Origin: Nitrososphaeria archaeon
Lineage (GTDB): Archaea; Thermoproteota; Nitrososphaeria; Nitrososphaerales; JACAEJ01
Assembly (NCBI GenBank): GCA_029775875.1
Contig: JARVKD010000008.1
Coordinates: forward strand, 1 to 40,874
Direction of reading: 5' to 3'
DNA: 40,874 bases
The first letter of the stretch is position 1. Each line of letters opens with the position of its first letter. Position numbers and translations under genes: made by a program. Shown here in pieces: positions 1,063 through 37,300 of this stretch. The notes under the pieces are model-generated. The model was not told the origin of the DNA and did no database searches. It saw nothing but the letters and a program-made list of their open reading frames with translations.

Positions 1063-1479
1063 TTACTTCCTTATCTTTATTCCTTTCAGCACACACTCTT
1101 TTCCTGACAAGACATCTATCTCGTTTGAACCACAACAAGGGCAAATCATAGATGTGAAATAATTATCCATACAATGCACACAACTTAGATTTTCAAGATG
1201 ACTGATCATAGGCGATCTTGAAGATAGATCGGGTCTCCAAGAATGCTTACATTTTTTACACTCAAAGATAGACTCGGTTGCATCTATCTTTATCTTACAA
1301 TTTTTAAAAGTGGCTTCATCTTCGAATATAGTCTCAAGTGTAAATTGGAGTTGCTGGGGGCTTATCATAGTCAACTCTCCTAACTCGATTTCTAACTCTA
1401 TCACTTCTTTACCTTCCTTTTCTTCTAATATCCCCTTGACCATATCGAAAATAGCCAAGGCTAAAGATATTTCATGCAT
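1063..1479 (-). CDS. hypA: HypA-type nickel insertion / zinc protein
   Basis: HypA delivers nickel to [NiFe]-hydrogenase precursors and carries a structural zinc site. This 138-residue protein starts MHEISLA, with the N-terminal Met-His-Glu that HypA uses to bind nickel. Its zinc region begins at CKKC (about residues 74-77) and closes at CPCC (about 113-116). The extra residues between the Cys pairs match the longer HypA form known from Thermococcales. Its start overlaps the end of the upstream Cys-rich gene by 8 bases, so the two are translationally coupled. No hypB, other hyp genes or hydrogenase genes are in the window. It could serve a hydrogenase elsewhere or another nickel protein. Confidence 0.88.
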   Translation of the reverse strand: MHEISLALAIFDMVKGILEEKEGKEVIELEIELGELTMISPQQLQFTLETIFEDEATFKNCKIKIDATESIFECKKCKHSWRPDLSSRSPMISHLENLSCVHCMDNYFTSMICPCCGSNEIDVLSGKECVLKGIKIRK

Positions 1480-2536
1480 CTCTCTTCTCCCTCACATCTG
1501 GGAAATCCTTTGCTAACGATGGTTTTATGACCTCAATCCCCTTCGATCTAAGAAGCATGTTTATTGCTCCACTTAACGCGCATAAAGAGCCATATCCCTT
1601 GCCTACTATCTGAGAATCATCTTTTACGGTAACTGTTAGGAATTTTTCATAGCCCAATTCAGCTCTTAGTCCAGTTTCAGACAGTCTTTTCAAAACAACG
1701 TTTCCCATGGCGCCCATGGCCTTCCCAAGCCAGATGTCCTTGACCGGGCATTGATCGCAGTATCCCTTAAGAACCTTGCCAGCTTTCGAGCCAACTAATC
1801 CTGCGGCTACTTCTGTTCTGACTATTGCATATGCAGTACAACAACCCCAATTCTCGGCTAATTTCTTCTCTCCTTCCAAAAGTGAGACAACAACATGAAA
1901 GTTCTCCCATTTGAACACATTTTCTATATTACGCTCCCATTTTAGTTTGCCTGTATTAACTTCATTTTTGAGCTGTTCCTTCACATACCCCCCAAGTTCA
2001 GGGTCTCTGGAGGCTGCTATAACTGCAGCACATGCAGGGCAAAAGATATTTTGAGCTTCGGATATTTTTCTATTGTTTTTATCATAGAACTCGACTGTTA
2101 CTCCAATTCTATCCCTCTTAGCAAAAACTTTACCTCCTTGACTTGAAACCTTCGAGATGGCTATGGCTGCTGGTCTGACTATTCGACCGAAACCAAAGAT
2201 TTCCTTAACCTTTTTTATATCTTCTTCACTTGTAAGAACTTCTCTTAATTCACTCCTCCACGGCTCAGGCACAACTTCTCCCTCTATCATGGCCCTCAGG
2301 GTTGCTGGTGGCCATGTGATGTCTATTCCCTCTTCTATGATGCTTCCATTTGGATCGATCATTTTACTTATGGCACCTTCAGGGACCTCTTGTGAGACAA
2401 CTTTGCAACCGTACTCGCTTAAGAGCGCCAATACTTGATGATACATTCCGCATGATCCTTCAGAATGCCTAAGGTATTTTTTTAATCGATCATTGATCAC
2501 ATTTAGGTCGAGTTTATCTTTCACATATCTCACCAT
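1472..2536 (-). CDS. Unrecognised cysteine-rich protein coupled to hypA
   Basis: I do not recognise this 354-residue protein. It has nine cysteines: 29, 44, a CPAC pair at 166/169, adjacent Cys at 232/233, a CDQC pair at 260/263, and 319. That spacing suits an iron-sulfur cluster or metal site. No signal peptide or membrane segment is visible, so it is probably cytoplasmic. A Gly/Ala-rich stretch (about 243-280) looks like a cofactor or nucleotide fold. The ATG at 2536 has no Shine-Dalgarno site, but an AT-rich TATA-like element lies about 25 bases upstream, so it is probably leaderless. It is the first gene of an operon with hypA and lies 65 bases after hdrE, which suggests metal-centre assembly or redox work. 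That role is inference. Confidence 0.7.
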   Translation of the reverse strand: MVRYVKDKLDLNVINDRLKKYLRHSEGSCGMYHQVLALLSEYGCKVVSQEVPEGAISKMIDPNGSIIEEGIDITWPPATLRAMIEGEVVPEPWRSELREVLTSEEDIKKVKEIFGFGRIVRPAAIAISKVSSQGGKVFAKRDRIGVTVEFYDKNNRKISEAQNIFCPACAAVIAASRDPELGGYVKEQLKNEVNTGKLKWERNIENVFKWENFHVVVSLLEGEKKLAENWGCCTAYAIVRTEVAAGLVGSKAGKVLKGYCDQCPVKDIWLGKAMGAMGNVVLKRLSETGLRAELGYEKFLTVTVKDDSQIVGKGYGSLCALSGAINMLLRSKGIEVIKPSLAKDFPDVREKRDA

Positions 2537-2601: not shown

Positions 2602-3429
2602 TTATTTAGAAATACCTCTTACCACTTGAGTTATAGTGAGAGAGATTATATGAATTAGTTTGCTGAAAGGAAGGTATATTAGGAGTACCTCTACAACAAA
2701 AAGATGTAACGCGAAATAAGGATTAGCTACGATTGGCATCGGATTAAGGGCAAGCATATTCAAGAAATAGGGTCTTATCTCATTGAACATCGAAACATGG
2801 GCTTCTGGGATGAATCTCATGGTCATTCCAAGAAAACCTTTAACCAACAAGAGAATCAACAAAAAATAATCGCCAAGAATTGAAATCTTTCTAATCTCTT
2901 TGACAAATATCCTTCTTAAGAGAAGAATAGTAATTCCACCAATGAAGATCACTCCAACTATTGAACCTGTTAACCCAGAGAAGGCTTCTATCTCACTCTC
3001 AGTAAAATGCAGTGCATCCCATATGGGGGTGAACTCGATAGCTAGCCTCGCATGTCCTATCAACATGCCTAGTAAAGCGATATGTGTAGGCCAAGTGATT
3101 AGCCATAACTTGAAGGAACCTCTATACACCCTTCGTAGAAAGAATATCTCCAGTATTATTCCCTTCACAAGATTTACTATCCTCCTTGGTATACTTGGCG
3201 TTTTCTTATACCCAACAGATTGAGATTGTACTTGATCTGTAGTTGAAGTTGCATAACTCGCTATACTTGATGGTTCCTTGAACTCAAGAGACTGGGATTT
3301 TTGATCAGATCTGAACCAATCGGCTATTCTATATATTATCCCACCGAAAAATATAGTTGCAGAGACGTAAGGCATGATCCCCATGACAAACAGATAGAAT
3401 AAATCCGCCAAAGTGCCTTCTGTTGGCAT
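2602..3429 (-). CDS. hdrE: HdrE-like cytochrome b (NarI/DsrM family) membrane subunit
   Basis: HdrE is the membrane cytochrome b that passes electrons from methanophenazine or another quinone-like carrier to HdrD, which reduces CoM-S-S-CoB. About five hydrophobic helices are visible. Candidate haem-ligand histidines sit in the second helix (THIALLG and GHARLA) and the last helix (ALHLF and KLIHI). A Ser/Gln-rich hydrophilic linker lies between helices 1 and 2 (about residues 35-80). The start is ATG at 3429, preceded by AGGAGG; an upstream TTG at 3453 is possible. The divergent neighbour is hdrD, 71 bases away, sharing one AT-rich promoter region. The DsrM of sulfate reducers belongs to the same family, but the methanogenesis context favours HdrE. 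Confidence 0.82.
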   Translation of the reverse strand: MPTEGTLADLFYLFVMGIMPYVSATIFFGGIIYRIADWFRSDQKSQSLEFKEPSSIASYATSTTDQVQSQSVGYKKTPSIPRRIVNLVKGIILEIFFLRRVYRGSFKLWLITWPTHIALLGMLIGHARLAIEFTPIWDALHFTESEIEAFSGLTGSIVGVIFIGGITILLLRRIFVKEIRKISILGDYFLLILLLVKGFLGMTMRFIPEAHVSMFNEIRPYFLNMLALNPMPIVANPYFALHLFVVEVLLIYLPFSKLIHIISLTITQVVRGISK

Positions 3430-3500
3430 GTTCCTCCTATCATGCCTTAACAATATTTATATTTAATGATTTACCCATATAATTTGAGGAAAGATTGAAC

Positions 3501-4676
3501 ATGGAAGTTGGAAAAATTGGAAACATCAGATCTGGGCTAAGACCCTTACTAAAGGTGCAGTTAGACTCATGCACTAGATGCGGAGTTTGCGTGAAATGGT
3601 GCCCTGCTGTTGAAGAGTTAGGAGAACTAGTCTTTTCGCCGGTAATGAAGATGGATCTTCTCAGGAAAGCTTCCAAGTCAAAGCCTACAGAAAATCTCAT
3701 TGAAGAAGCAAAGAGAGCCTTCTATGCCTGCACAGTTTGTGGAGCTTGTAGCTCTGTCTGTGGTTCTTTGATAGATACTCCAGAGCTTTGGGAGAGTATA
3801 AGAACTGGACTAGTAGAACTGGGAATAGGTCCCTATGGGAAGCAAATTGGATATGAACCAAGAGTGAAATCGAAATACAATCCGTACGACGAAGCCCCAA
3901 ATGCTAGATTGAACTGGCTTCCTAATGATGTGAAAGTTGCAGGGAAAGCAGATTTAGGTCTATACATAGGTTGTACTCAATCATACAGACAACAGAAGTA
4001 TGCCATCCTTACAGCAAGGTTGCTACAGAAACTAGGAATCAAGTTCACTCTACTTGGGAACGAAGAATGGTGTTGTGGTTCTCCTTTATTAAGAACAGGG
4101 CAAGAAGAGTTAGTACCAAGCCTAGTGAAGCACAATGTTGATGCCTTTAAGGAGAGGGGCGTAAGAAGGGTTGTTTATACCTGTGCAGGTTGTTTCAGAA
4201 CTAGCCTTATTGATTGGCCTAAGTACTATGGAGTTCCATTCGAAGTTAACCATGTGACACAGCTTATGGCTGAGCTGATCAATAAGAACTACATCAATGC
4301 TAGCAAATTGAATCCGTTTACAAAAGTGGTTACTTATCATGACCCATGCCATCTAGGTCGACACATAGGCATTTATGATGAACCTCGCTTAGTATTAACC
4401 GAAATCCCCAAAATTGACTTCATAGAGATGAAAAGAAGTAAAGAAACTGCAAGATGTTGTGGAGCTGGAGGAGGAGTCAAGGCAGGGATGCCAGATCTGG
4501 CACTAAAAATGTCCCTTAGGAGGCTAAAGGATACAATGGATACTGGAGCATCTGCCTTAGTCACTTCTTGTCCATTCTGTTTATTGAACTTCAAGGATGG
4601 TATAAAGGAGGCCAAAGTAGGTCTGGAAGTCTTTGATTTAACAGAGTTGATAGCCAGTCAGCTGGGAATAACCTGA
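3501..4676 (+). CDS. hdrD: HdrD-like heterodisulfide reductase catalytic subunit
   Basis: HdrD reduces the CoM-CoB heterodisulfide made by MCR, regenerating both thiols. In this 391-residue protein the N-terminus carries two [4Fe-4S] motifs (Cys 24, 27, 30, 34 and Cys 77, 80, 83, 87). Two CCG domains follow, the active-site [4Fe-4S] type: Cys 158, 191, 192, 228, 231 and Cys 283, 319, 320, 357, 360. This is the fused HdrC-HdrB architecture, close to the roughly 400 residues usual for HdrD. The ATG at 3501 is preceded by GAGG ten bases upstream; a TTG at 3495 is less likely. It is transcribed away from hdrE. DsrK is an alternative family member, but with mcr beside it HdrD is the better call. 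Confidence 0.88.
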   Translation: MEVGKIGNIRSGLRPLLKVQLDSCTRCGVCVKWCPAVEELGELVFSPVMKMDLLRKASKSKPTENLIEEAKRAFYACTVCGACSSVCGSLIDTPELWESIRTGLVELGIGPYGKQIGYEPRVKSKYNPYDEAPNARLNWLPNDVKVAGKADLGLYIGCTQSYRQQKYAILTARLLQKLGIKFTLLGNEEWCCGSPLLRTGQEELVPSLVKHNVDAFKERGVRRVVYTCAGCFRTSLIDWPKYYGVPFEVNHVTQLMAELINKNYINASKLNPFTKVVTYHDPCHLGRHIGIYDEPRLVLTEIPKIDFIEMKRSKETARCCGAGGGVKAGMPDLALKMSLRRLKDTMDTGASALVTSCPFCLLNFKDGIKEAKVGLEVFDLTELIASQLGIT

Positions 4677-4731: not shown

Positions 4732-5001
4732 TTATTTTTCCTGCATTTCCTCAATTCTTTGAGTGAAATATTCTACCAGACGCTGTCTTGCTTTTTCAAG
4801 AATTTCCTTTTTCTTCGATTTGAAGGCTAAGGCTTTTATCTTTGTAGGCTTCTCTTCACCAGGAGGATAGGTATAAGCATCTTTTTCGACGATTTCTAGA
4901 TTAAGTTCCTTAGTTATTTTCAATATGATAGAGAGAGGAACGCCAGGCATAATAATTAGGTGATAGGCTTCGTCTTCTTTTTCGCCACTCAACCTGGACA
5001 T
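4732..5001 (-). CDS. Small hypothetical protein
   Basis: This protein of 89 residues, counted from the ATG at 5001, has a mixed alpha/beta N-terminal half and a charged helical C-terminus (about residues 62-89). No Cys, membrane segment or known motif is visible. A TTG one codon upstream is an alternative start. The sequence before it is AT-rich with a TATA-like run near 5044, consistent with a leaderless message. It is convergent with hdrD and lies about 100 bases beyond the AbrB-type gene on the same strand. No function can be assigned. Confidence 0.5.
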   Translation of the reverse strand: MSRLSGEKEDEAYHLIIMPGVPLSIILKITKELNLEIVEKDAYTYPPGEEKPTKIKALAFKSKKKEILEKARQRLVEYFTQRIEEMQEK

Positions 5002-5102
5002 CAAGCAAAAGTTTGGTATATCTTGTTAATAATGTTTTTAAAATTGTTAAAGGACAAAACTCAAAAAACTCACAATTGTAAAGTGACATGTTAAAGCGTC
5101 AA

Positions 5103-5524: not shown

Positions 5525-6850
5525 ATGCCAAAATACCCTGATAAGATAGACTGCTATGACGATCGAGGCAATCTAGTTGAGAAAAATGTCCCACTCGAGG
5601 CAATATCGCCTCTTTTAAATCCAGCGATAAAGAAGATAGTCTCTCTAGCGAAAAGAAGTGCTATAGTAAACTTAGAAGGCTTACAGAAGGCGCTAGCAAC
5701 TGGAGGAGTTGGGGGCGCGGGCAGTTCTGTTCCCGGGCGAGAAATCAATATACCTGTACTAGAAAATACGGATGCTATTATCGATGCCCTAAAGAAGTAT
5801 ATACAAGTGAAGCCTGGAGACGATACTGAAATAACAAAGATCGCTGGTGGAAAACAGCTTCTTGTCAAAATACCAACTTTGAGAGGCGAAGCTGGAGTAG
5901 AGTACACTACTGGTTTTACAGTTGTAGCTGCTGCTATGTGCCAAGCCCTGTTCGATATCTTTAAGCTAGATATATGGGATGCAGACATGGTCCATGCCGC
6001 TATTTGGGGAAGGTACCCACAATCTGTTAATCCAATGGGCTCTTTCGTAAGTACTCTTCTATCAGTACCTCAGATGAATGAAGGAATGGGTTATGCCCTC
6101 AGGAACATACCTTGTGCCAACATAGCCATGATCACTAAGAAAAACGCTATGAACGCAGCCGCATTAGCCTCCGTCCTCGAGCAAACAGCCATGTTTGAAA
6201 TGGGGGATGCTATCGGTTCTTTTGAGAGACTCCATCTTCTAGGACTTGCTTTTCAAGGCCTTAATGCCAACAACTTCGTCTATAGCCTTGTGAAAGAGAA
6301 CGGGAAAGGTACGGTTGGAGACGTTGTTGCCGGCACAGTGAAAAGAGCGATAGATGACAAGGTAATAAGACCTCTAAAGAAAGAGGCGAACTATACAGTC
6401 TATACAACAGATGATATGTCAAAATGGAACGCCTATGCTTGTGCAGGTATGTTGGCTGCCAATATGGTATTGTCTGGTTCTGCTAGGGCTATGCAGCATG
6501 CACCTTCTCTCATGTTGTACTTCTCAGACCTCATAGAGCGTGAGACAGGCTTGCCTGGACCTGATTTTGGCAAAATACACATGACGGCTATAGAAATGTC
6601 ATTCTTTAGTCATTCGATTTATGGAGGAGGCAATCCAGCTGTTTTCCATGGAAACCATATAGTCACAAGGCATAGCAAAGGATTCGCTATTCCATGTATA
6701 GCTGCTTCTGTAGCCTTAGACGCAGGAACAACCTATTACTCACCAGAGAAGATATCAGGAGTCACAGAAGTCTTCTCCGAAATCCCAGAGCTAAGAGAAC
6801 CAATAATTCACATTGCTAAAGCTGCTGCCGAAATCAAAGGACAAGTCTGA
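5525..6850 (+). CDS. mcrB: Methyl-coenzyme M reductase subunit beta
   Basis: McrB is one of three subunits of the (alpha-beta-gamma)2 enzyme that releases methane from methyl-CoM and CoB at nickel cofactor F430. The 441-residue length is normal. The active-site segment SIYGGGNPAVF is present, with Tyr366 matching the substrate-contacting tyrosine (Tyr367 of the Methanothermobacter enzyme). Phe360/Phe361 match the hydrophobic wall and His378 the CoB-binding histidine. The GNHIVTRHSKGFAIPC block is typical. Unusually, mcrB stands alone on the plus strand with its own promoter and faces mcrA end to end, rather than leading an mcrBDCGA operon. A T-rich terminator follows. Confidence 0.97.
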   Translation: MPKYPDKIDCYDDRGNLVEKNVPLEAISPLLNPAIKKIVSLAKRSAIVNLEGLQKALATGGVGGAGSSVPGREINIPVLENTDAIIDALKKYIQVKPGDDTEITKIAGGKQLLVKIPTLRGEAGVEYTTGFTVVAAAMCQALFDIFKLDIWDADMVHAAIWGRYPQSVNPMGSFVSTLLSVPQMNEGMGYALRNIPCANIAMITKKNAMNAAALASVLEQTAMFEMGDAIGSFERLHLLGLAFQGLNANNFVYSLVKENGKGTVGDVVAGTVKRAIDDKVIRPLKKEANYTVYTTDDMSKWNAYACAGMLAANMVLSGSARAMQHAPSLMLYFSDLIERETGLPGPDFGKIHMTAIEMSFFSHSIYGGGNPAVFHGNHIVTRHSKGFAIPCIAASVALDAGTTYYSPEKISGVTEVFSEIPELREPIIHIAKAAAEIKGQV

Positions 6851-7079: not shown

Positions 7080-8744
7080 TTAACGAGGAGGTACGATTAC
7101 GTCTCTTCTGCCTGCTGGCATGTACTCCCTTAGTACTCCTTTGGCGAAGCACTCTCTTGGATACGTCCAGTCGAATTTAAGGCTTGGATCTGCGAACGCG
7201 ACTTTGATTAATGGATTGACACACCAAGCATCCCCTCTAGCAGCGTGTGCGGCTGCAACTATGCCTGTATAGGCACTCGTGTGCCCAACATTCATAGCAT
7301 AGTTCGGATAGTTCACTCCTCTCAACTCGATTGGTAGGCCTTCATCACTTCTCCATGACCAGAGATTGCATGGTCCCGCATGGTCCTGTGCATCGTAACC
7401 ATAGAAGCCAAGCCTGCCCATCCATTCTTTATGTATAAGCTGGCTCAAGTACCAGCATCCCATTCCTGCCTGCGCGACTCCGGTTGCAAGGGATCCTCCT
7501 ATTCCTGAAGCTGCTGCTGCTACTGCAGCCCTCTGTGATCCTCCAAAGTGAGTTTCCATGTTAGCAGGGTATTTTTCATACGAAGATAACGAGTAGTCAG
7601 TTATAGCTGTAGCTACGTCCTTTATGACATCCATCGAGGGTTTGACCTTTGCAAGCCCACCAAACTTTTTCTTTACATAATCTAGGCCCCAGTAGACATA
7701 ATCATCTAGAATGTCATCTGTGTAGACACATGATGCGTATTGAGTGAAGCCAACTCCGCCAGACATGTAGCTACCAAACCAATATTGGTCGTATATGACA
7801 GCACCACAAGCCAGCGCTTCTAAGGCATACTTGCATGGGTCCTCTGGATGTACTCTGTTGTATTGAATCATATCTGCCAAATACCCGAACGGAAGTCCTC
7901 CTGGCTCATTGGGTCCCCTAGCCCTTCTCCAAGGTGTCAGGGTTCCCATTTCAATAAGCTCAGCGTGCTTTGCTGCGAACGCAAATTCACCTACTGCTGC
8001 TTCTCCAGCCATGAGTTTGTATGATGGTATCATGGCCATCGAAATCTGCATGGCAGCCCATCTAGCCATGGTACCTCCATCCATAAGGTGCCCAACTATT
8101 GTAGGCATCCTTAAGGCTTGATAGGTTTTCTTTCCAATAGCTTTCTTCAATTTTTCGGCTTGGTCCTTAGGGAATAGTTTGTTTATGTCAATTAGGAACC
8201 TTTTGTCTATCCTGTCGGCTAATTCATCGTCTCCAGTGAATACTTTGCAATAGCAGTCCTCGGTTAAGGCTGGATGAATCTCGGCCATGTGCTCTTGAAT
8301 TGTGGCGCCTCCAGGAAGAGCATGGTTTAATACTTCAAGATAATGGTTGATCGTCTCAGGTGTTACTTCTTTTCCTAACCTCTTGGACAAGATGGTGTGG
8401 GCAGCATCAAGACCTACTATTACTGTTCTCCTGATATCATCCCAAAGTTGATGCATTGCAGCGTTATTGACAACATGGATGTCTTCAGGCATTCCATAAG
8501 TTTCAGTACCTGATATTAAGTAAGGCATGTAGGTTCTTTGACCTAAACCTACACCACCGCAACCAAAGGTTGGATTATACATTGGTATGTTCCTTTGCTT
8601 GGCAATTTTATCTGATATTTCTTTAAACTCTCTTTTCCTTGGATCTTGCGCCCAACCACCTAATGTATAGAAGGTAGTGTATCTTTCCTCAGGACTTTCC
8701 TTGAACTTCTTTCTCAAAGCCTTAATATATCTTGGTTCAGCCAT
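7080..8744 (-). CDS. mcrA: Methyl-coenzyme M reductase subunit alpha
   Basis: McrA holds most of the F430 active site. The 554-residue protein carries Gln150 (matching Gln147, the axial nickel ligand, in ATIQEHM), Tyr336 in GGVGFTQYA, and the FGGSQRA and RLGFYGYD blocks. Residues modified in known McrA are present: His260 (N-methyl-His), Arg274 in [11 protein letters not shown] (5-methyl-Arg), Gln404 (methyl-Gln) and Gly449 (thioglycine). Asp454 matches the didehydroaspartate site. The S-methylcysteine position is Ala456 (QDHAG in place of QDQCG). These features mark a methane-type enzyme rather than the divergent alkane type. GAGGTGA precedes the ATG, and mcrG lies 12 bases upstream in the same operon. 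Confidence 0.98.
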
Positions 8745-8756
8745 TCTATCTCACCT

Positions 8757-9533
8757 CTATATGCCCTTAACTCCTTCCGGGTTGAACCCGGATCTACACC
8801 TCAATTCAAAGTTTCTATGAATATAGTTAAGTAAGGGCTTGTCATCAACGAATTTGATGTGATCTATCCTGAACTGAACTGTTCTCTTCTTCAACTCATT
8901 TTCGGGTAGCGGCACCCCGATCTCCACTGGCTTGTCCAATGGGACTCCTAACTGATCTTTGACATATTCTACAACTCCCTTTGCCTTATTAAACGTGTAT
9001 CTTCTTACAGCGTCGAACATCAACCCATTTTCATCAAGCCTCAATGCATGTCCATGAACCGTGTATCCTCTAAGGGCTGTACGTGCTGGATCGAAGACTT
9101 CGGTCTCAACCAATTCTTTAGCGACCTTCTCTATGTCTCTTTCTCTTCCCTCGATAGGATTTCTTCCAGATAGGACGCCCGGATCAAGGCCTCTATATCT
9201 AGAATACATTGCCCAAGTTCTTACATATGGTGCCATGGGTGAGAAGTATACCGAATCTGTAAATTGAACAAATCTGATTCTATCGCCAGCCTTCGTTCCT
9301 GGTGTAGGCTCAACAATCTTCCTGATCGGATCCTCAGGTTCCTTCATTTCCTCAAGTGGAGGGTGCACAGTCTTGTATGCTTCTCCTGGTTTTCTATGTC
9401 CTAATACTCTAACAAGATCTTCGTCACTTACGCTTCTTAGCTTCTCATATTTGGTCTTTGGGTCTAAATACTTTCTTCTGTTAATAGAAGATTGAGACGT
9501 TCCAGGGTAGAATTGTCTAACATATGTGCTCAT
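8757..9533 (-). CDS. mcrG: Methyl-coenzyme M reductase subunit gamma
   Basis: McrG completes the MCR hexamer. The 258-residue length is normal. Family landmarks include QFYPGTS near the N-terminus, the central VHGHALRLDENGLMFDA block and RTVQFRIDHIKF near the C-terminus. The ATG at 9533 has a GAGGTA Shine-Dalgarno site (9541-9546) with 7-base spacing, and a TATA box at 9583-9592. That points to a promoter separate from mcrD, which ends 86 bases upstream. It is co-transcribed with mcrA, whose start follows 12 bases later. Confidence 0.97.
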   Translation of the reverse strand: MSTYVRQFYPGTSQSSINRRKYLDPKTKYEKLRSVSDEDLVRVLGHRKPGEAYKTVHPPLEEMKEPEDPIRKIVEPTPGTKAGDRIRFVQFTDSVYFSPMAPYVRTWAMYSRYRGLDPGVLSGRNPIEGRERDIEKVAKELVETEVFDPARTALRGYTVHGHALRLDENGLMFDAVRRYTFNKAKGVVEYVKDQLGVPLDKPVEIGVPLPENELKKRTVQFRIDHIKFVDDKPLLNYIHRNFELRCRSGFNPEGVKGI

Positions 9534-9619: not shown

Positions 9620-10039
9620 CTATAAGAGGTATTCTCTCATCGAATCGCTTATAGTAGGTTGAGTTTTGGTGAATTGCCCTACTCTAATGTCAAATCCGAA
9701 AGGCAATTGTTCGTTACACATTTCTTTCAGCCTCTCCAAAAAAACGTCCAAGTCGACACCTTTGATTGGCTGAATTATTATTCGACCAACTTTTACTGTT
9801 AGCTCTACCTCTTCACTACCAAATCTGATCTTTCTTAAATCCTCATGCCCAGTTTCCACCCTAATTCCCATAGGATGCTCCCTAGAAGGCACAACGACGT
9901 ACTTGGGAAGCTTTGGACCGTGTAGGATTATGTTCTCAACCATCCCCAGCCTGATGATAGAATTCAGAATCTTTTCTACTCTATCAGCTGAGAGTAATCT
10001 TCTAGGGAATATCTCTATCTCCATCTTTATGTGCCTCAT
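9620..10039 (-). CDS. mcrD: Methyl-coenzyme M reductase operon protein D
   Basis: McrD is a non-structural MCR protein thought to bind and help deliver F430 or to chaperone assembly. This 139-residue protein shows the family pattern: IEIFPRRLLSADRVEKIL near the N-terminus, a central VVVPSREHP segment and DLDVFLERL toward the C-terminus. It is slightly shorter than many McrD proteins. The ATG at 10039 follows a TTTATAAA box by about 30 bases, so translation is probably near-leaderless; an ATG five codons later is possible. It is 86 bases upstream of mcrG on the same strand and divergent from the DUF2098 gene. Confidence 0.88.
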   Translation of the reverse strand: MRHIKMEIEIFPRRLLSADRVEKILNSIIRLGMVENIILHGPKLPKYVVVPSREHPMGIRVETGHEDLRKIRFGSEEVELTVKVGRIIIQPIKGVDLDVFLERLKEMCNEQLPFGFDIRVGQFTKTQPTISDSMREYLL

Positions 10040-13085: not shown

Positions 13086-13604
13086 TTAAGATTTTTTCTT
13101 ACTCAATTCTTTAGCTACGCTTTTTGCTTCTTCCTTCAACTCTTCCCTGAGCCCTTCGAAAAAGAAATTTAGGCTTTTGAGGGTAAGTTGTGAAATCAAG
13201 CTCCCCAAACTGTATTCGCCGCCTTTACTCTCGAAAACTTTCATAATCGTCTCGTCATTTTCACTTATCGATCTTCTCAATAACCTTCTCATACCCTCTC
13301 CAACTTTCTTGGCTAACTCATCAAGCTCGTTGAACTCTTCCATTTTCATGATGTATCTTGGGACAAAGACTTTTGACTTTCCTTTCTCGACACATTCAAC
13401 CAATCCATCTTTGCACGATTTATCAAGAATTTTTTTAATCTGTTCTTCGCTTAAGGTTGTTAGAGAAGAAAGGAGGGCAGAATTCATAGGTCCCTTGGAG
13501 ATTAGGTTAAGTAGAATGAAAAGATCTGGCTCATTTACTATATTGGCAAATCTATAGAGTTCTTCGAGCTTACCGCAGAATAGAATGTCCATCTTAAATA
13601 CCAT
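13086..13604 (-). CDS. Winged-helix (ArsR-like) regulator, probable
   Basis: This 172-residue protein has an N-terminal domain (about residues 20-90) with the helix pattern of a winged helix. It includes the segment SALLSSLTTLSEEQIKKIL, followed by LVECVEKGKSKVFVP as the likely wing. The rest is helical and charged, with a Lys-rich tail. No ligand-binding motif is evident. It follows the 291-residue gene by 37 bases on the same strand and may be the last gene of the mmp8 transcription unit. It may regulate genes of this cluster; the target is unknown. Confidence 0.6.
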   Translation of the reverse strand: MVFKMDILFCGKLEELYRFANIVNEPDLFILLNLISKGPMNSALLSSLTTLSEEQIKKILDKSCKDGLVECVEKGKSKVFVPRYIMKMEEFNELDELAKKVGEGMRRLLRRSISENDETIMKVFESKGGEYSLGSLISQLTLKSLNFFFEGLREELKEEAKSVAKELSKKKS

Positions 13605-13641: not shown

Positions 13642-14517
13642 TTAGTGATGGGTTTTGAACGATTTAATCGTGGCTGTCTCTAGCTTTATTTTGCCTAACT
13701 CTTTAATTCGATCATGATCTAGTAAAGCCCCTGATACATCGACAATATGCCCCTTGTGAGATATGATAACAATATTCTCAGATTCTGCCTTTGCCACAGG
13801 AATATCTTCTATGTATATGTCTTCCCCTGAAGAGACCCCGAACACTTTTCTATATACAAATTTGCCCTTGGTTGTTATACGCTCCTGAGGAAGAGACGAT
13901 CCATTAACAATGGTAAGGTTCAATATTGAAGAGAGAATGGATAAAATCTGAGGAGGAATCTGAGTCCATGTAATCGCCATAAATTTGTCTAATTCCTCAA
14001 CTTTGGCTATCTCCACGAAAGCGACTGGTTCTCCTAAGAGAGAACTATTGCTCAATACTGCATAGCCCATATACATGGCATTCTCCAAATTCTTCGTCTT
14101 CGTTGCGAATATTATTGCATCAACTCCTTCACTATATAACACATCCACGGCTTCGCTGGGTGTTTTGCATTCACTAAATTTTCCATAAGATTTTTCTTTT
14201 AGCTTGAGATCTTCTGAAATGAAAGCTTTTCTAATTTTGTCTAAGAACTTGTAGTCTTCGAAAGATGGTGTTTTAACCAAGCCGATGAAGAAGCCTTTGT
14301 GAATCTTGATTGGTTCATACTTGTTGATCATTACACCTGCACCAATGTTCTCGGCCTCTAGGAGCAAACTTCTCAATTTCTCAGAGATTTCCGACACGAT
14401 CCATGTCGACCTTTGGATATTAATCGCCTTTATCTTTCTTAACTCTCTTACTATTCTGACTCTTAGTCCATATGGATCAATCTTTTCATTGATATCATAA
14501 AGAAGAAGATACTTCAT
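13642..14517 (-). CDS. Unrecognised protein with Cas2/PaaX-like N-terminus
   Basis: The first 65 residues (MKYLLLYDINEK, then RIVRELRKIKAINIQRSTWIV) follow the ferredoxin-like pattern seen in Cas2 and in the PaaX middle domain. The remaining 220 residues match nothing I can name: an alpha/beta region (about 70-200) and a C-terminal part with EDIPVAKAE and IVIISHKGHIVDV segments. The total is 291 residues. No CRISPR array or other cas gene is nearby, so a CRISPR role is unlikely. It lies 79 bases after mmp8 on the same strand and may belong to the conserved methanogen-specific proteins of unknown function. Confidence 0.6.
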   Translation of the reverse strand: MKYLLLYDINEKIDPYGLRVRIVRELRKIKAINIQRSTWIVSEISEKLRSLLLEAENIGAGVMINKYEPIKIHKGFFIGLVKTPSFEDYKFLDKIRKAFISEDLKLKEKSYGKFSECKTPSEAVDVLYSEGVDAIIFATKTKNLENAMYMGYAVLSNSSLLGEPVAFVEIAKVEELDKFMAITWTQIPPQILSILSSILNLTIVNGSSLPQERITTKGKFVYRKVFGVSSGEDIYIEDIPVAKAESENIVIISHKGHIVDVSGALLDHDRIKELGKIKLETATIKSFKTHH

Positions 14518-14596: not shown

Positions 14597-15463
14597 CTAA
14601 GTAAGCGGGTAAGGGGAATTCTCTGGGCTTAGTTTAGGTAGCTCTGCCCTCGTTACTAAAATGGGGAGGTCTGTTTTCATCAAATGATTTAAGGCAATTT
14701 TCTTACCCCTTCCAGTTAAAGCGAAAACAGGGATAGAGGAACCTATTTGCATTAAAGCTTTTGGACCAACTTTTTCCCTAACTACGCTAGACGAGCATGA
14801 CCAGACTAAATCTGATAGCAACAAAAATGGAACCTGTGAATCTTTTAGGCAAGGATTGTGAACTGATAGAATATTAAGGGTAATTTGCTCTTTATTCTCA
14901 ATTTGTCTTAATTTAGGTATCTTATCGGATTCAAAACCCGCTATTGTGACTGCTATTCTTTCATAGCCTAACTTTATGGCTTCCTTTACGCCTTTAAGTT
15001 GATTTATGTGAGCTTTATCGCTGATTATTACTGTTCTTTTTTCTTTGAGTTCATTCATAATTTCAGCTATGGGGCTTGTTCTAAGTATCCCAGTAAGCCT
15101 AGCACCTATTCCTTGGACAAGTTTAGGATCATTCACGATTACTGTTCCAGCGCCTTCACAAACAATTACGCAACAATCTATTAGCTTTGATTCTAGTGCC
15201 ATGCTAAGCATCTCTGATGCACCAAAAGTTATCAAAAAGTCACCAGAAAAAGCTCTATTCTTAGTGAAGAGATGATCTTGGATTTGTCTCTGTATTATTT
15301 CTTTGACTTTTTCTCGGTCAATTCTTTTGTATCCATAGAGATTATTATAGATAGGGCAATATCTAACCTTTGGTTCAGACAGTACTTTTACCCTGCCATT
15401 ATAAATCAACACCCTTGCTCCACAAGTTTCTATCAGGTGTTTGCCCATATCTATTTGAATCAT
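14597..15463 (-). CDS. mmp8: Methanogenesis marker protein 8 (DUF2099)
   Basis: The segments VRYCPIYNNLYG, SGDFLITFGASEML, CVIVCEGAGTVIVNDP and LVQGIGARLTGILRTSPI match methanogenesis marker protein 8, found almost only in MCR-bearing archaea. Its biochemical role is not established. The 288-residue length is normal. The ATG at 15463 (or 15448, five codons later) has no Shine-Dalgarno site. It is divergent from mcrC, and the gap holds a perfect 11-bp inverted repeat that overlaps the mcrC TATA box. Shared control with mcrC is therefore plausible. Confidence 0.88.
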   Translation of the reverse strand: MIQIDMGKHLIETCGARVLIYNGRVKVLSEPKVRYCPIYNNLYGYKRIDREKVKEIIQRQIQDHLFTKNRAFSGDFLITFGASEMLSMALESKLIDCCVIVCEGAGTVIVNDPKLVQGIGARLTGILRTSPIAEIMNELKEKRTVIISDKAHINQLKGVKEAIKLGYERIAVTIAGFESDKIPKLRQIENKEQITLNILSVHNPCLKDSQVPFLLLSDLVWSCSSSVVREKVGPKALMQIGSSIPVFALTGRGKKIALNHLMKTDLPILVTRAELPKLSPENSPYPLT

Positions 15464-15561: not shown

Positions 15562-16194
15562 ATGCCTGTAGGAAGAAGGACTCATGTAGTAGATTGCAGA
15601 GAAACCATGGGCGTTGGCTTAGGCGGTGAACTAGCTCAAAGCGGGACGATATCTGAGTCAGAAGGCAAGGAAGTAATAGTTCTCTCCATGTCTCCTGATA
15701 GAAGGCATGTAACCAAGCCAGTTTGTGAGATAACCTATGGTTTAAGAGAAGCGAACATAGAGGTTAGCGTTATCGTTTTCAGGTCAGGCATGGGTCAACC
15801 TAGAGATTCGCCTGCTGCTGGTGCAAGAGGGACTATGTGTGAAGTAGGGTATGATGAAGTGTTCAAAGTAAGGCGCTTTAAACTAGCGATAATACATGCT
15901 GGAGCGGTTAAGCATCATGTTGCCTATAAAGTGAAATACTTACTTGGCTTAGTTGATCTCCCTTGTGTAGTCATATGCCAAGCGCCAGTAGATTTCGAGG
16001 ATTTGGCTCTAGTAGGGATTAAAACAAGGGTGGTACGGCCTCCCTCTGAGAAGACGGAAACAGTTGGGGAAGTGGTGGACATTGTCACCGACGTTGTCAG
16101 AGGGGCTACTGTGCCAATTGACAAGATGAACGAAATAATAGCTAAAGTTAGGAAATGGGCTGATTACTACTCCAACAAGACTGATAAGATCTAG
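15562..16194 (+). CDS. mcrC: McrC, component of the MCR activation complex
   Basis: McrC is not an MCR subunit but part of the ATP-dependent complex that reduces the F430 nickel to its active state. The family pattern is clear: THVVDCRETMGVG, SPDRRHVTKPVCEITYGLRE, IHAGAVKHH and PVDFEDLALVGIKTR. The 210-residue length is normal. Several Cys (in VDCRE, KPVCEI, TMCEVG and LPCVVICQ) could hold clusters. The ATG at 15562 lies about 30 bases after the TATA box, so the leader is very short. It lies apart from mcrB, mcrD, mcrG and mcrA. Its 3' end overlaps the convergent atwA-1 by 4 bases. Confidence 0.93.
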   Translation: MPVGRRTHVVDCRETMGVGLGGELAQSGTISESEGKEVIVLSMSPDRRHVTKPVCEITYGLREANIEVSVIVFRSGMGQPRDSPAAGARGTMCEVGYDEVFKVRRFKLAIIHAGAVKHHVAYKVKYLLGLVDLPCVVICQAPVDFEDLALVGIKTRVVRPPSEKTETVGEVVDIVTDVVRGATVPIDKMNEIIAKVRKWADYYSNKTDKI

Positions 16195-33431: not shown

Positions 33432-34544
33432 ATGAGAATAGGTGTAATCTTTCATAGACCAGAAATCATAGATTTAGGCTGGGCAAGGAAGGTTTTGAAA
33501 ATATTGGATAGGCTTGGTGAAGTAGATGCCAAGCTTTGTGGGACTATGGGGACTCTTGCTGTATTGGACAATTATATGGATGATAGGATCAAATGCGATT
33601 TCAGACCTACTATTGAATGCTTGGTTGAGATGATCAAGAAATGTGATTCTATAATCATAGCAACTTATTCAGAAAACGCACTTAAATCTCATGCTTTCTG
33701 CTGGCATCTGGTTAAGAGATTACTTTCTCCTCGTATGCCTATCATAGAGGTCGAGGCTAAAAATGGAGTAGTAATAGATTGGTGCATTAAAAGTGGTTTG
33801 AGTGCTAATCTGGCTAAAGAATTGGGATTTAGAATGATTTCACCCCCTGATTTTGGGGAAACCTCTTGGATAAGAAATGGTATCAAACATAGGAAGATAT
33901 TGGCCGTTGACTTAGGCGATTTTGTTCTTGTTAACGGTATAGTCATTGGACGAGCAATCTCTAAAGAGGTTATTCTTAAGGAATATGAGGGAAAGATAGT
34001 AGGGGGTGAAGGATTAGAATTCAAGAATCACGGTTTGACAAAACTTGATGAAATGGGAAAGTTAGATCTATTCAAAGCCAAGCTGGATACCACGAATCTC
34101 CTGAGGAGAACTCGATTTAAACGGCGGTATATAGAACCAATTAGCAAAGGAAACCTTATTGCATTCATAGAGCACAGCGTAGCGGGTTACTCTGGCGCAA
34201 ACATCTACGAGGAAATTAAAAAGGGGATATCGGGGGCAATAACTATCGGGGATGACACAACCGCCATTGCAGGAGATATACTATCAAGGTTTAAGATTCC
34301 TGTAATCGGGATAGTAGACGGGGATCGCGATGGTCTCTTGAAGAATACTTTACTTGCTGAAGGTTCAATAATTTTACAGGTTAAGAGTGATGACCAATTG
34401 GGTGAAATAATACACAATAAAATCTTTAAGGGTGAGAGACATCTTAAGCTTAAATTCGAGGAAATGAAGGATAAAGTAATAAGGCTGGCAACCAAATCAG
34501 ATCAATTGGTTAGAAAGGGCATCAGAATTGCCTCAAATTCCTAA
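33432..34544 (+). CDS. DUF2117 family protein of methanogens
   Basis: The N-terminus (MRIGVIFHRPEIIDLGWARKV, then AKLCGTMGTLAVLDNYMDDRI) matches DUF2117, a family conserved in methanogens with no known function. The 370-residue length fits. Residues about 230-330 form a second alpha/beta region with an acidic DGDRDG motif that could bind metal or phosphate. The ATG at 33432 is close behind an AT-rich promoter, so the message is probably near-leaderless. Its 3' end overlaps ycaO by 17 bases, putting it in one operon with ycaO and tfuA. That suggests a link with McrA modification. Confidence 0.82.
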   Translation: MRIGVIFHRPEIIDLGWARKVLKILDRLGEVDAKLCGTMGTLAVLDNYMDDRIKCDFRPTIECLVEMIKKCDSIIIATYSENALKSHAFCWHLVKRLLSPRMPIIEVEAKNGVVIDWCIKSGLSANLAKELGFRMISPPDFGETSWIRNGIKHRKILAVDLGDFVLVNGIVIGRAISKEVILKEYEGKIVGGEGLEFKNHGLTKLDEMGKLDLFKAKLDTTNLLRRTRFKRRYIEPISKGNLIAFIEHSVAGYSGANIYEEIKKGISGAITIGDDTTAIAGDILSRFKIPVIGIVDGDRDGLLKNTLLAEGSIILQVKSDDQLGEIIHNKIFKGERHLKLKFEEMKDKVIRLATKSDQLVRKGIRIASNS

Positions 34545-35778
34545 CAGTCTAAAATTAAAGAGTTGTCCAAAGAATTATACAATAGGGACTCATAGGGCAG
34601 TTCCCCCTGAAAAGACTCTAAACTGGATAAAACCAAAAATTCCAACTATAGGTATTACAAGGATAGCAAATATAACTGGGTTGGATAGAGTAGGAATCCC
34701 AGTTTATTCATGCGTTAGACCTAGAGCGGCAGAGGGAGCAATTTCTGTTTACTCTGGAAAAGGAATAGCAGAGATTCATGCCGAGGTTTCAGTCATCATG
34801 GAGGCTGTTGAGAGATACTCCGCTGAGGTCAAATCAGAAGATCAAAAAAGAATCATAAAAGGATCTTTTAAGGAACTATCCTCGAAATTTAATGCTTTAG
34901 ACCCTGCGGATCTTATCATACCATTCACTACTTCTTACAGTCAGGATGCACCGTTGAGGTGGATCGAAGGTTTCGACATAATTCAAGACGAAAAGATATT
35001 GGTTCCTGTAAGTGCAGTTTTTCATCCTTATCTCCCAAGCGATGATCTTCATCTATTTAGAACAACTACCAATGGGCTGGCTTCAGGAAACACTGTAGAG
35101 GAGGCTGTTCTACATGGCTTGATGGAAGTGATTGAAAGGGACGCTTGGAGCTTAACTGAACTAACAAAAGATGAGAGAGAGGTTATTCGTGCTTCAGAGG
35201 ATTGCTTTTTAGTCAAAGAATTAATAGACAAATTCGATAGAAACGAAATCAGAATCGTGCTAAAAGATATAACTTCTGACCTAGGTTTGCCAGTAATAGC
35301 AGCAGTTTCTGATGATTTTAGGCTGATGGACCCTGCCCTTCTAACCATAGGTTTTGGTGCTCATTTGGATCCTGAAATAGCAGCGATCAGAGCCTTGACT
35401 GAAGTTGCGCAAAGCAGACTAACTCAGATACAGGGCGCAAGGGAGGATACCTACAAAGCTGATTTCATGAGGATGTTTGGGTACGAGAGGATTAAGAAAA
35501 TCAATAAGCATTGGTTCTCGGATTCGAAAGACTTCAAAGAAATTCGAAGCATGCCAAATCTTTCCAGAAGAGATATTTTAGATGAGATAATGCTTGTCAT
35601 CTCAATTCTTAGGAAGAAAGGTTTTGAACATGTAATAGTTGTTGACTTGACAAGAAAAGAACTCGAAATTCCAACTTTAAGGGTAATCGTTCCTGGGCTT
35701 GAAGTATATAGTCTCGATATGGATAGGATAGGACCTAGAGGAAGAAAGCTTATGGAGGAAAAGTCTTGGAAAAAATAA
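34528..35778 (+). CDS. ycaO: YcaO-type McrA thioamidation enzyme (marker protein 1)
   Basis: YcaO proteins use ATP to activate a peptide backbone amide. In methanogens this one, with TfuA, converts a glycine of McrA into thioglycine. The 416-residue sequence carries the ATP-binding blocks EIHAEVSVIMEAVERYSAE (about residues 87-105) and GLMEVIERDAWSL (about 197-209), with ALTEVAQSRL further on. The start is TTG at 34528, 17 bases inside the DUF2117 gene. The end overlaps tfuA by 13 bases, so the two enzymes are translationally coupled. The predicted target is Gly449 of the McrA encoded here. Confidence 0.93.
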   Translation: MPQIPNSLKLKSCPKNYTIGTHRAVPPEKTLNWIKPKIPTIGITRIANITGLDRVGIPVYSCVRPRAAEGAISVYSGKGIAEIHAEVSVIMEAVERYSAEVKSEDQKRIIKGSFKELSSKFNALDPADLIIPFTTSYSQDAPLRWIEGFDIIQDEKILVPVSAVFHPYLPSDDLHLFRTTTNGLASGNTVEEAVLHGLMEVIERDAWSLTELTKDEREVIRASEDCFLVKELIDKFDRNEIRIVLKDITSDLGLPVIAAVSDDFRLMDPALLTIGFGAHLDPEIAAIRALTEVAQSRLTQIQGAREDTYKADFMRMFGYERIKKINKHWFSDSKDFKEIRSMPNLSRRDILDEIMLVISILRKKGFEHVIVVDLTRKELEIPTLRVIVPGLEVYSLDMDRIGPRGRKLMEEKSWKK

Positions 35779-36434
35779 CTATATTCACGGGACCGAGCCT
35801 CCATCCAAGGAAGGCAAGAGAAATATTCGATAAAGCCATTTATATGCCGCCCATAAAGCGTGGTGATGCTACCAAGGCTTTTGAGGAAGGAGCTAGAATC
35901 ATAGGGATAATAGACGGTATATTCTTCAAGGAGGTTGCAGTCTCCCCGAGGGAGCTTCTGGCTCTTCTGGACAAAGGAATCATACTGGTCGGAGGAAGCA
36001 GTATGGGCGCTTTGAGAGCGGCTGAGCTCGACGTTTACGGAATGATTGGAGTAGGGCATGTTTATGAAATGTATAAAAAAGAGGAGATAAATTCAGACGA
36101 CGAAGTCGCTCTCATATTCGCTCCTGATACTCTAAAGCCTTTATCAGAACCATTGGTCAACATAAGGTATAATTTGAAAGCTCTTGCAGAAAGCAATGTA
36201 ATAGATTCTGATACCGCTGAAGATCTATTAAAAATAGCTCAGGGATTGTACTATCCGTTGAGGACTTATGAGAGAATTATTGGATTAGCCATTAACAAGG
36301 GGCTGTTAACGAAGGAAGAGGGAAATATGATACTGGATTCGGTATCAAGGCATAGAACCGACCTTAAGCGACTCGACGCAATAAAAGTCATAGAAAAAAT
36401 CAAAGAAATCGCCACTCAACAGAATTTGATCTAA
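35766..36434 (+). CDS. tfuA: TfuA protein, partner of YcaO in McrA thioamidation
   Basis: The 222-residue protein matches the TfuA core: ITIFTGPSLHPRKAREIFD, YMPPIKRGDATKAFEEGARI, GIIDGIFFKEVAVSPRELL and GGSSMGALRAAEL. TfuA helps YcaO use a sulfur donor to form the thioamide. The C-terminal 80 residues are helical. The start is TTG at 35766, within the end of ycaO. The stop overlaps the convergent nifB by 4 bases. Confidence 0.92.
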   Translation: MEKITIFTGPSLHPRKAREIFDKAIYMPPIKRGDATKAFEEGARIIGIIDGIFFKEVAVSPRELLALLDKGIILVGGSSMGALRAAELDVYGMIGVGHVYEMYKKEEINSDDEVALIFAPDTLKPLSEPLVNIRYNLKALAESNVIDSDTAEDLLKIAQGLYYPLRTYERIIGLAINKGLLTKEEGNMILDSVSRHRTDLKRLDAIKVIEKIKEIATQQNLI

Positions 36435-37300
36435 GCGTGGAAGATTTCGCTCATCTCGTACCGTCTTTCTTGAAAGCCTATTTCTCGTCCAGGGATTCCA
36501 ACTGCATCCGCTCTACACATCTTGCAGAGCCTAAATTGCTTTATAATTTTCTCACATTTCATTCTAGCGTCTTGAAGCTCATCACATGTGGGTGGTCTTC
36601 TTTCCTTAAAATTACCAATTGGGATTAATGGTATTATGTTCTGAACGTATGCCCCTGCTTCTTTGATCTTTTTAGCGACCTCTTCTACATGACGATCATT
36701 TATCTCTGGTATAAGAACAGTATTCACCTTCACTATCATCCCCCTTTTAACAGCTAATTCGACCCCTTCTATTTGATTTGAAACAAGGGTCTTGGCTGCA
36801 TCTAATCCTTCTATCAACTTATTCTTATAATAAATGAAAGGATGTATCTTAGTAGTTATTTCTGGATCGATTGCATTCATTGTCACTGTAAGAAAATTAA
36901 CTCCTGCGCTAGCCAATTCATCTAACTTATCCCGAAGTAAAAGACCGTTTGTAGCGATACATAGAAACAAATGTGGATATTTCTCATGAACAAGCTTTAA
37001 TGTTTCGAAGGTTTCTCTGTTGAACAAAGGCTCACCTGGTCCAGCTATGCCAACAACCTTGAGTTCTTTGAATTCCTTGACGACTATTCCTAAATAGTCC
37101 AAAGCTTCCTTTGGTGAAAGTATTTTTGAGCTGACGCCAGGTCTAACTTCTAGAGAGTTAATCAATCTATAGCAATAATTGCATTGGATGTTACACTTTG
37201 GAGCGACGGGAATATGAACCCTGGCTATGTTAAGATGCGCTTTTGCGTTGAAGCACGGGTGGCTTTTGACTATTCTTGGTTCAGCTAACATTTCCTTCAT
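36431..37300 (-). CDS. nifB: NifB-type radical SAM iron-sulfur cluster synthase, short form
   Basis: NifB fuses two [4Fe-4S] clusters and inserts a carbide to make the [8Fe-9S-C] NifB cofactor. Seen here: the diagnostic HPCFN (14-18), AHLNIARVHIPVAPKCNIQC with the radical SAM Cys 36, 40 and 43, GIAGPGEPLFN, and the C-terminal LCKMCRADAVG. It lacks the C-terminal NifX-like domain, the usual archaeal short form (289 residues). No nifH, nifD or nifK is present; instead it adjoins the McrA modification operon. It probably supplies a complex cluster for MCR activation rather than nitrogenase. GGTTATAAC lies about 22 bases before the ATG, so the message is near-leaderless. Confidence 0.9.
   Translation of the reverse strand: MKEMLAEPRIVKSHPCFNAKAHLNIARVHIPVAPKCNIQCNYCYRLINSLEVRPGVSSKILSPKEALDYLGIVVKEFKELKVVGIAGPGEPLFNRETFETLKLVHEKYPHLFLCIATNGLLLRDKLDELASAGVNFLTVTMNAIDPEITTKIHPFIYYKNKLIEGLDAAKTLVSNQIEGVELAVKRGMIVKVNTVLIPEINDRHVEEVAKKIKEAGAYVQNIIPLIPIGNFKERRPPTCDELQDARMKCEKIIKQFRLCKMCRADAVGIPGREIGFQERRYEMSEIFHA

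Follow-up and report, generated by a model that had tools for sequence, protein, structure and literature searches.

The protein encoded at positions 1472-2536 of the window, here called CCprot, may be an accessory protein for methyl-coenzyme M reductase (MCR) biogenesis that carries a cysteine metal site and supplies sulfur or metal, a proposal to which we give about an even chance. Its association with MCR-bearing genomes is well supported, as is the conclusion that CCprot founds an undescribed archaeal family. Nearly all biological methane is made by MCR, an enzyme whose maturation and reductive activation are only partly understood and which is still poorly produced in heterologous hosts and poorly activated in vitro. 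With its links to mcrC, ycaO-tfuA, mmp8 and hypA, a conserved cysteine-rich protein such as CCprot offers a concrete candidate for a missing MCR factor, and the question is directly testable because M. thermautotrophicus deltaH has an ortholog.

The window is the whole 40,874-nucleotide stretch that was analysed, from a genome assembly of 1,227,868 bp in 54 contigs. Within it, the CCprot gene is an intact open reading frame with an ATG start, and its product has exactly nine cysteines, at residues 29, 44, 166, 169, 232, 233, 260, 263 and 319, which include the motifs CPAC (166-169), CC (232-233) and CDQC (260-263). This reading frame and its cysteines, first pointed out in the earlier note, are real, and a relative 81% identical over the full length is present in 'Ca. 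Methylarchaceae' HK01M. Across 42 sequences, a set that reaches down to 34% identity, Cys29, 166, 169, 232, 233, 260, 263 and 319 are invariant, together with His33. Since eight of nine cysteines are invariant in these homologs, as against 20 of the 345 other residues (Fisher p 5e-9), the pattern is far from chance. Cys44 is the only cysteine not kept, so that the nine-cysteine pattern originally remarked upon comes down to eight that matter, all under extreme constraint. The features of the gene are as follows, with repeats numbered as in the predicted structure.

1472-2536, minus strand: CCprot coding sequence (354 aa, eight invariant cysteines)
2450-2452, minus strand: codon of Cys29 (invariant), four residues before the likewise invariant His33; first conserved helix
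2030-2041, minus strand: C166-P-A-C169, at the predicted strand 3/helix junction of repeat 2
1838-1843, minus strand: adjacent Cys232-Cys233, at the predicted strand 3/helix junction of repeat 3
1748-1759, minus strand: C260-D-Q-C263
1580-1582, minus strand: codon of Cys319, at the predicted strand 3/helix junction of repeat 4

An AlphaFold2 model of CCprot (14 homologs) reached a pLDDT of 86.8 and a pTM of 0.87, and residues 8-192 modelled alone reached 95 and 0.89. The predicted secondary structure consists of four alpha-beta-beta-beta-alpha repeats, and profile alignment finds an internal repeat as well (R1-R2, E 3e-7; R1-R3, E 1.5e-5; R4 weak). The model places Cys166/169, Cys232/233 and Cys319 where strands pass into helices in repeats 2-4. 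Foldseek searches of the PDB with the full and half models returned nothing at E below 0.001; among weaker matches, the half model hit the dsRBD of Rnt1p (probability 0.60-0.66, E 0.3-0.9). The likeness to DNA sliding clamps in the whole-model search, with TM-scores of ~0.09, is meaningless beyond a repeat-level resemblance. An IscU/SufE-type scaffold, suggested by the placement of strands and cysteines, was likewise set aside as lacking sequence support: hhalign against E. coli IscU/SufE sequences gave E 0.04 or worse at a probability of ~1% or less, and neither protein is among the top Foldseek matches shown for the CCprot models. No metal-binding domain or fold was recognised by family scans or Foldseek. 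Of the profile and structure checks advised at the outset, the latter yielded the four-repeat model, and together they gave no known family or significant fold match.

The search for a known family was equally negative. CCprot has no significant match in Pfam (best E 0.12) or among PDB sequences and no match in NCBIfam; together with the Foldseek result, this upholds the earlier note's claim of an unrecognised family, and the housekeeping-family match which that note had held up as a counter-indication was looked for and none exists. Family scans of 16 homologs, and of the M. thermautotrophicus, M. fervidus-like and two Halobacteriota members, revealed no consistent family. None of the members scanned matched the curated methan_mark models (best E in one set of members 0.013, to unrelated models), and one member gave an isolated Rad50 match (E 5e-4). 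We found no name, model or paper for the family in the libraries searched, and a literature search by guessed locus tag for the M. thermautotrophicus ortholog returned nothing; the family may have an arCOG or a place among the 38 markers of Borrel et al. 2019. Surveys of methanogenesis markers based on Pfam DUFs would miss CCprot, for which Pfam has no model. In-frame TGA codons in several homologs were considered as selenocysteine, and translation shows them to be terminal stops.

A single-sequence scan of the genome collection found nothing, and a seven-member alignment brought out 15 loci; the motif scan of 84,980 species found archaeal relatives only, 11 of 15 being MCR-positive. Carriers fall in the Methylarchaeales, Nezhaarchaeota, Methanomethylicota, MCR-bearing Archaeoglobi, other Halobacteriota, Methanomassiliicoccales and Methanobacteriales. 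Profile searches detected CCprot in Nezhaarchaeota-like and Methanomethylicota genomes, Archaeoglobi, Methanomassiliicoccales, Alkanophagales and Methanobacteriaceae archaeon 41_258, with 29 of 394 Halobacteriota genomes and 14 of 140 genomes of the phylum of 41_258 being positive. In a maximum-likelihood tree, the supported clades are those of Thermoproteota, Methanobacteriota, large Halobacteriota groups and a distant clade linked to tusA and hypA.

Whether homologs are confined to MCR-bearing archaea, a check that the earlier note had proposed, is answered largely in the affirmative: enrichment is strong, and a few carriers, mostly small or incomplete genomes, are MCR-negative. Among Archaeoglobi, CCprot is present in all five genomes with canonical MCR as against one of 54 others (p 1.2e-6, relatedness ignored), that one being a 1.1-Mb genome; two Archaeoglobi with only a divergent alkyl-type MCR do not have it. 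MCR is found in 5/6 Thermoproteota carriers versus 23/392 other genomes (p 7e-6) and in 27/29 Halobacteriota carriers versus 208/365 (p 4e-5), genomes being treated as independent in both comparisons. In the sixth Thermoproteota carrier, a genome 72% complete, mcrC and mmp3/6/17 still adjoin CCprot. The converse does not hold. CCprot is absent from 208 MCR-positive Halobacteriota, which are most of the MCR-bearing ones, from ~20 MCR genomes of a single Thermoproteota family (f20) and from two of the four MCR-positive genomes of the window's own family. MCR biogenesis therefore does not generally require CCprot, which would be dispensable or replaceable in this role. Two genomes of the window's genus have neither MCR nor CCprot, as if both were lost or absent together. 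Elsewhere, two Alkanophagales copies (L037 2389-3431; L038 2-660) are split over two frames at different positions, and a copy in an MCR-positive genome (L073 1501-2520) has an in-frame TAG, has lost Cys29 and has an altered CPxC; the last is probably a pseudogene. These copies suggest decay in places, in the Alkanophagales as if the gene were being lost in alkane oxidisers, although assembly error is possible.

In the window, CCprot lies among genes for MCR and its maturation; those with no curated model match are named by resemblance only.

1063-1479, minus strand: hypA, with the MHE nickel motif and zinc-ribbon CxxC motifs kept (PF01155, E 5.7e-21)
2602-3453, minus strand: hdrE-like cytochrome b gene, 65 nt upstream of CCprot (PF02665, E 2e-23)
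3510-4676, plus strand: hdrD-like Fe-S protein gene, divergent (CCG and Fer4 domains)
4732-5004, minus strand: 90-aa ORF, no family
5525-6850, plus strand: mcrB (TIGR03257)
7080-8744, minus strand: mcrA (TIGR03256)
8757-9533, minus strand: mcrG, homologous to the relatives' ORF between mcrB and mcrA
9620-10039, minus strand: mcrD, named by resemblance and position; the HK01M homolog follows mcrB
14597-15463, minus strand: mmp8 (TIGR03275); homolog directly after CCprot in Methanobacteriales
15562-16194, plus strand: mcrC (TIGR03264); homolog directly before CCprot in Nezhaarchaeota-like genomes
34528-35778, plus strand: ycaO, McrA-glycine thioamidation type (PF02624; homologs TIGR03266); homologs directly after CCprot in two clades
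35766-36434, plus strand: tfuA (PF07812)

The window also holds mmp3-like, mmp17, mmp7-like, mmp6, mmp5-like and mmp15-like genes and two AtwA-like ABC genes. HdrDE genes adjoining mcrABDG have been described, and 'Ca. Methylarchaeum tengchongensis' represents a cytochrome-b, methyl-reducing methanogen lineage (PMC9478090). Several further observations concern the neighbouring genes. The window HypA has, in common with that of HK01M, an insertion with an extra CxxC between the halves of its zinc ribbon. The 90-aa ORF, whose homolog (L022 1760-2032) sits between mcrD and CCprot in HK01M, is a second unexplained MCR-linked gene of Methylarchaeales, here near hdrD and mcrB. A 291-aa ORF with no NCBIfam match (13642-14517) lies in the MCR maturation cluster and is 63% identical in HK01M (L023 8431-9384). 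The helix-turn-helix protein at 13086-13604, a weak Lrs14-like match with homologs adjoining mmp17 in Nezhaarchaeota-like genomes (L017-L019), possibly regulates MCR maturation genes. Directly beside tfuA is a nifB-like radical SAM gene (36431-37300; TIGR01290, E 1e-89, below cut-off), in keeping with the [8Fe-9S-C]-type clusters of the MCR activation complex. At the contig edge, positions 1-43 (GGTTCAAATCC) resemble the 3' part of a tRNA gene; ARAGORN called no tRNA there, presumably because the gene is cut.

The overlap of CCprot with a nickel-insertion gene is confirmed, the neighbour being hypA by PF01155 and the overlap 8 nt. Adjacency to hdrE is not kept beyond the window: in HK01M, where the order is mcrB-mcrD-90-aa ORF-CCprot-hypA, hdrE is near CCprot and not adjacent to it, and it was unseen beside CCprot elsewhere. 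In three Nezhaarchaeota-like genomes, mcrC and CCprot are 1 nt apart or overlapping, with mmp3-mmp6-mmp17 divergent beside them, and one of these runs on into ycaO. Seven Halobacteriota genomes have CCprot-ycaO-tfuA, and ycaO (with or without tfuA) adjoins or overlaps CCprot in two separate clades. Mmp8 is directly downstream of CCprot in the six Methanobacteriota loci examined and in L027. In the Archaeoglobi the order is CCprot-hypD-hypC-hypE, accompanied by mmp11, ycaO-tfuA and a radical SAM gene, and three loci of the distant Halobacteriota clade have tusA-CCprot-hypA. Single loci place CCprot next to DUF1890-DUF1894 (L086) or to genes for a PP-loop protein, an aminotransferase-V (SufS-like), FdhD and a TtuA-like protein (L087). 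The hypA linkage that the earlier note had asked about is thus kept in Methylarchaeales and one distant Halobacteriota clade, and gives way to mcrC, mmp8, ycaO-tfuA or hypDCE elsewhere. Since hypA is swapped for other maturation genes in other clades, the common denominator appears to be MCR biogenesis and not hypA. As to possible cargo, sulfur genes are the most recurrent neighbours (ycaO-tfuA, tusA and those of L087), followed by nickel genes (hypA, hypDCE) and, third, electron supply (mcrC).

Taken together, the invariant cysteines and these recurring neighbours speak for a protein that assists MCR biogenesis and has a metal site, probably Fe-S. The eight cysteines and His33 are most likely the ligands of one or two metal centres, which would most probably be Fe-S clusters; eight cysteines would also fit zinc, nickel, disulfide or persulfide chemistry. 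The most likely role of CCprot would be to supply MCR during maturation either with sulfur, for example by way of YcaO-TfuA, which make the McrA thioglycine and whose sulfur source was undefined (PMC5589413), or, together with HypA, with a metal or cluster. That a cluster is bound by the cysteines, and that sulfur or metal and not electrons forms the cargo, is our inference; with partner genes varying from clade to clade, the evidence points to no one reaction. The earlier note's suggestion of a new maturation or redox factor gains from how strongly homologs are tied to MCR genomes and to genes for MCR or nickel maturation, and is weakened by the many MCR-bearing genomes that do without the protein. 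More tentatively, CCprot could provide a missing step towards active MCR, as an eight-cysteine metal or Fe-S protein giving the physiological sulfur for the McrA thioglycine, nickel or a cluster by way of HypA, or electrons of low potential for F430. If so, HypA in hydrogenase-poor methanogens would serve MCR rather than hydrogenase.

Two other readings we hold to be unlikely. CCprot could be a nickel-handling partner of HypA or other Hyp proteins for a nickel enzyme. The hypA overlap recurs in HK01M with the same 8 nt, hypA again adjoins CCprot in the distant Halobacteriota clade, and CCprot directly precedes hypDCE in Archaeoglobi. In addition, hypA is kept in the window's organism, from which Mvh and Vht are reported to be missing, so that MCR/F430 or CODH/ACS would be the nickel enzyme served there; both hydrogenases are described as absent, and CODH/ACS as present, in 'Ca. 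M. tengchongensis' and Methanoinsularis (PMC9478090). However, no hyp gene adjoins CCprot in the Methanobacteriota loci or the ycaO clade, and the Archaeoglobi that carry CCprot are almost only the MCR-positive ones, a distribution that disfavours a hydrogenase-only or CODH-only role. Archaeoglobus generally has CODH/ACS and hydrogenases. The other unlikely reading makes CCprot a source of electrons or complex Fe-S clusters for the McrC-Mmp3/7/17-A2 complex in the reductive activation of F430. The mcrC-CCprot arrangement with divergent mmp3-mmp6-mmp17, the eight invariant cysteines and the nifB-like gene beside ycaO-tfuA would all suit such a donor, and the MCR activation complex is said to need additional factors (PMC12176620). 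Yet linkage to mcrC occurs in a single clade of the tree, McrC, Mmp7, Mmp17, Mmp3 and A2 are the only components described for the complex purified from M. maripaludis, and many MCR genomes lack CCprot. It is improbable that CCprot is a redox or metal protein of general anaerobic metabolism merely travelling with methanogen gene clusters, as might be read from some loci with no MCR-related neighbour (L060, L069) and a second-clade Nezhaarchaeote copy (L034 7920-8972) that lies not among MCR genes but among genes for a large oxidoreductase and Fe-S, FAD-oxidase and HdrD-like proteins, given that separate clades repeatedly place it next to genes for MCR or nickel maturation and that in Archaeoglobi its presence is MCR-restricted.

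As a proposed MCR-biogenesis accessory protein, CCprot can be set beside several known systems. Its predicted repeat topology is like that of alpha-beta-beta-beta-alpha (dsRBD-like) folds and may be like that of IscU/SufE; four repeats with invariant cysteines, however, are a feature of CCprot and not of the dsRBD, and the fold matches are not significant. In its MCR restriction CCprot behaves like the Mmp series (TIGR0326x-0329x), which is archaeal, largely MCR-restricted, mostly of unexplained chemistry and clustered with mcrC, mmp8, mmp11 and ycaO; but CCprot has no sequence match to any of these, and its patchy distribution falls short of their near-universality in MCR genomes. TfuA/YcaO, which thioamidate the McrA glycine, adjoin CCprot in two clades and offer a possible sulfur connection; CCprot is a separate, cysteine-rich protein not homologous to them, and ycaO is, according to the literature, general in MCR genomes whereas CCprot is absent from many. 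HypA and HypDCE are its neighbours in two separated clades and one clade, respectively, but CCprot has neither sequence similarity to them nor a hydrogenase-specific distribution. Gene adjacency makes CCprot a candidate partner in McrA thioglycine formation, gene overlap or adjacency makes it a candidate nickel metallochaperone partner of HypA, and the eight invariant cysteines make it a putative Fe-S protein.
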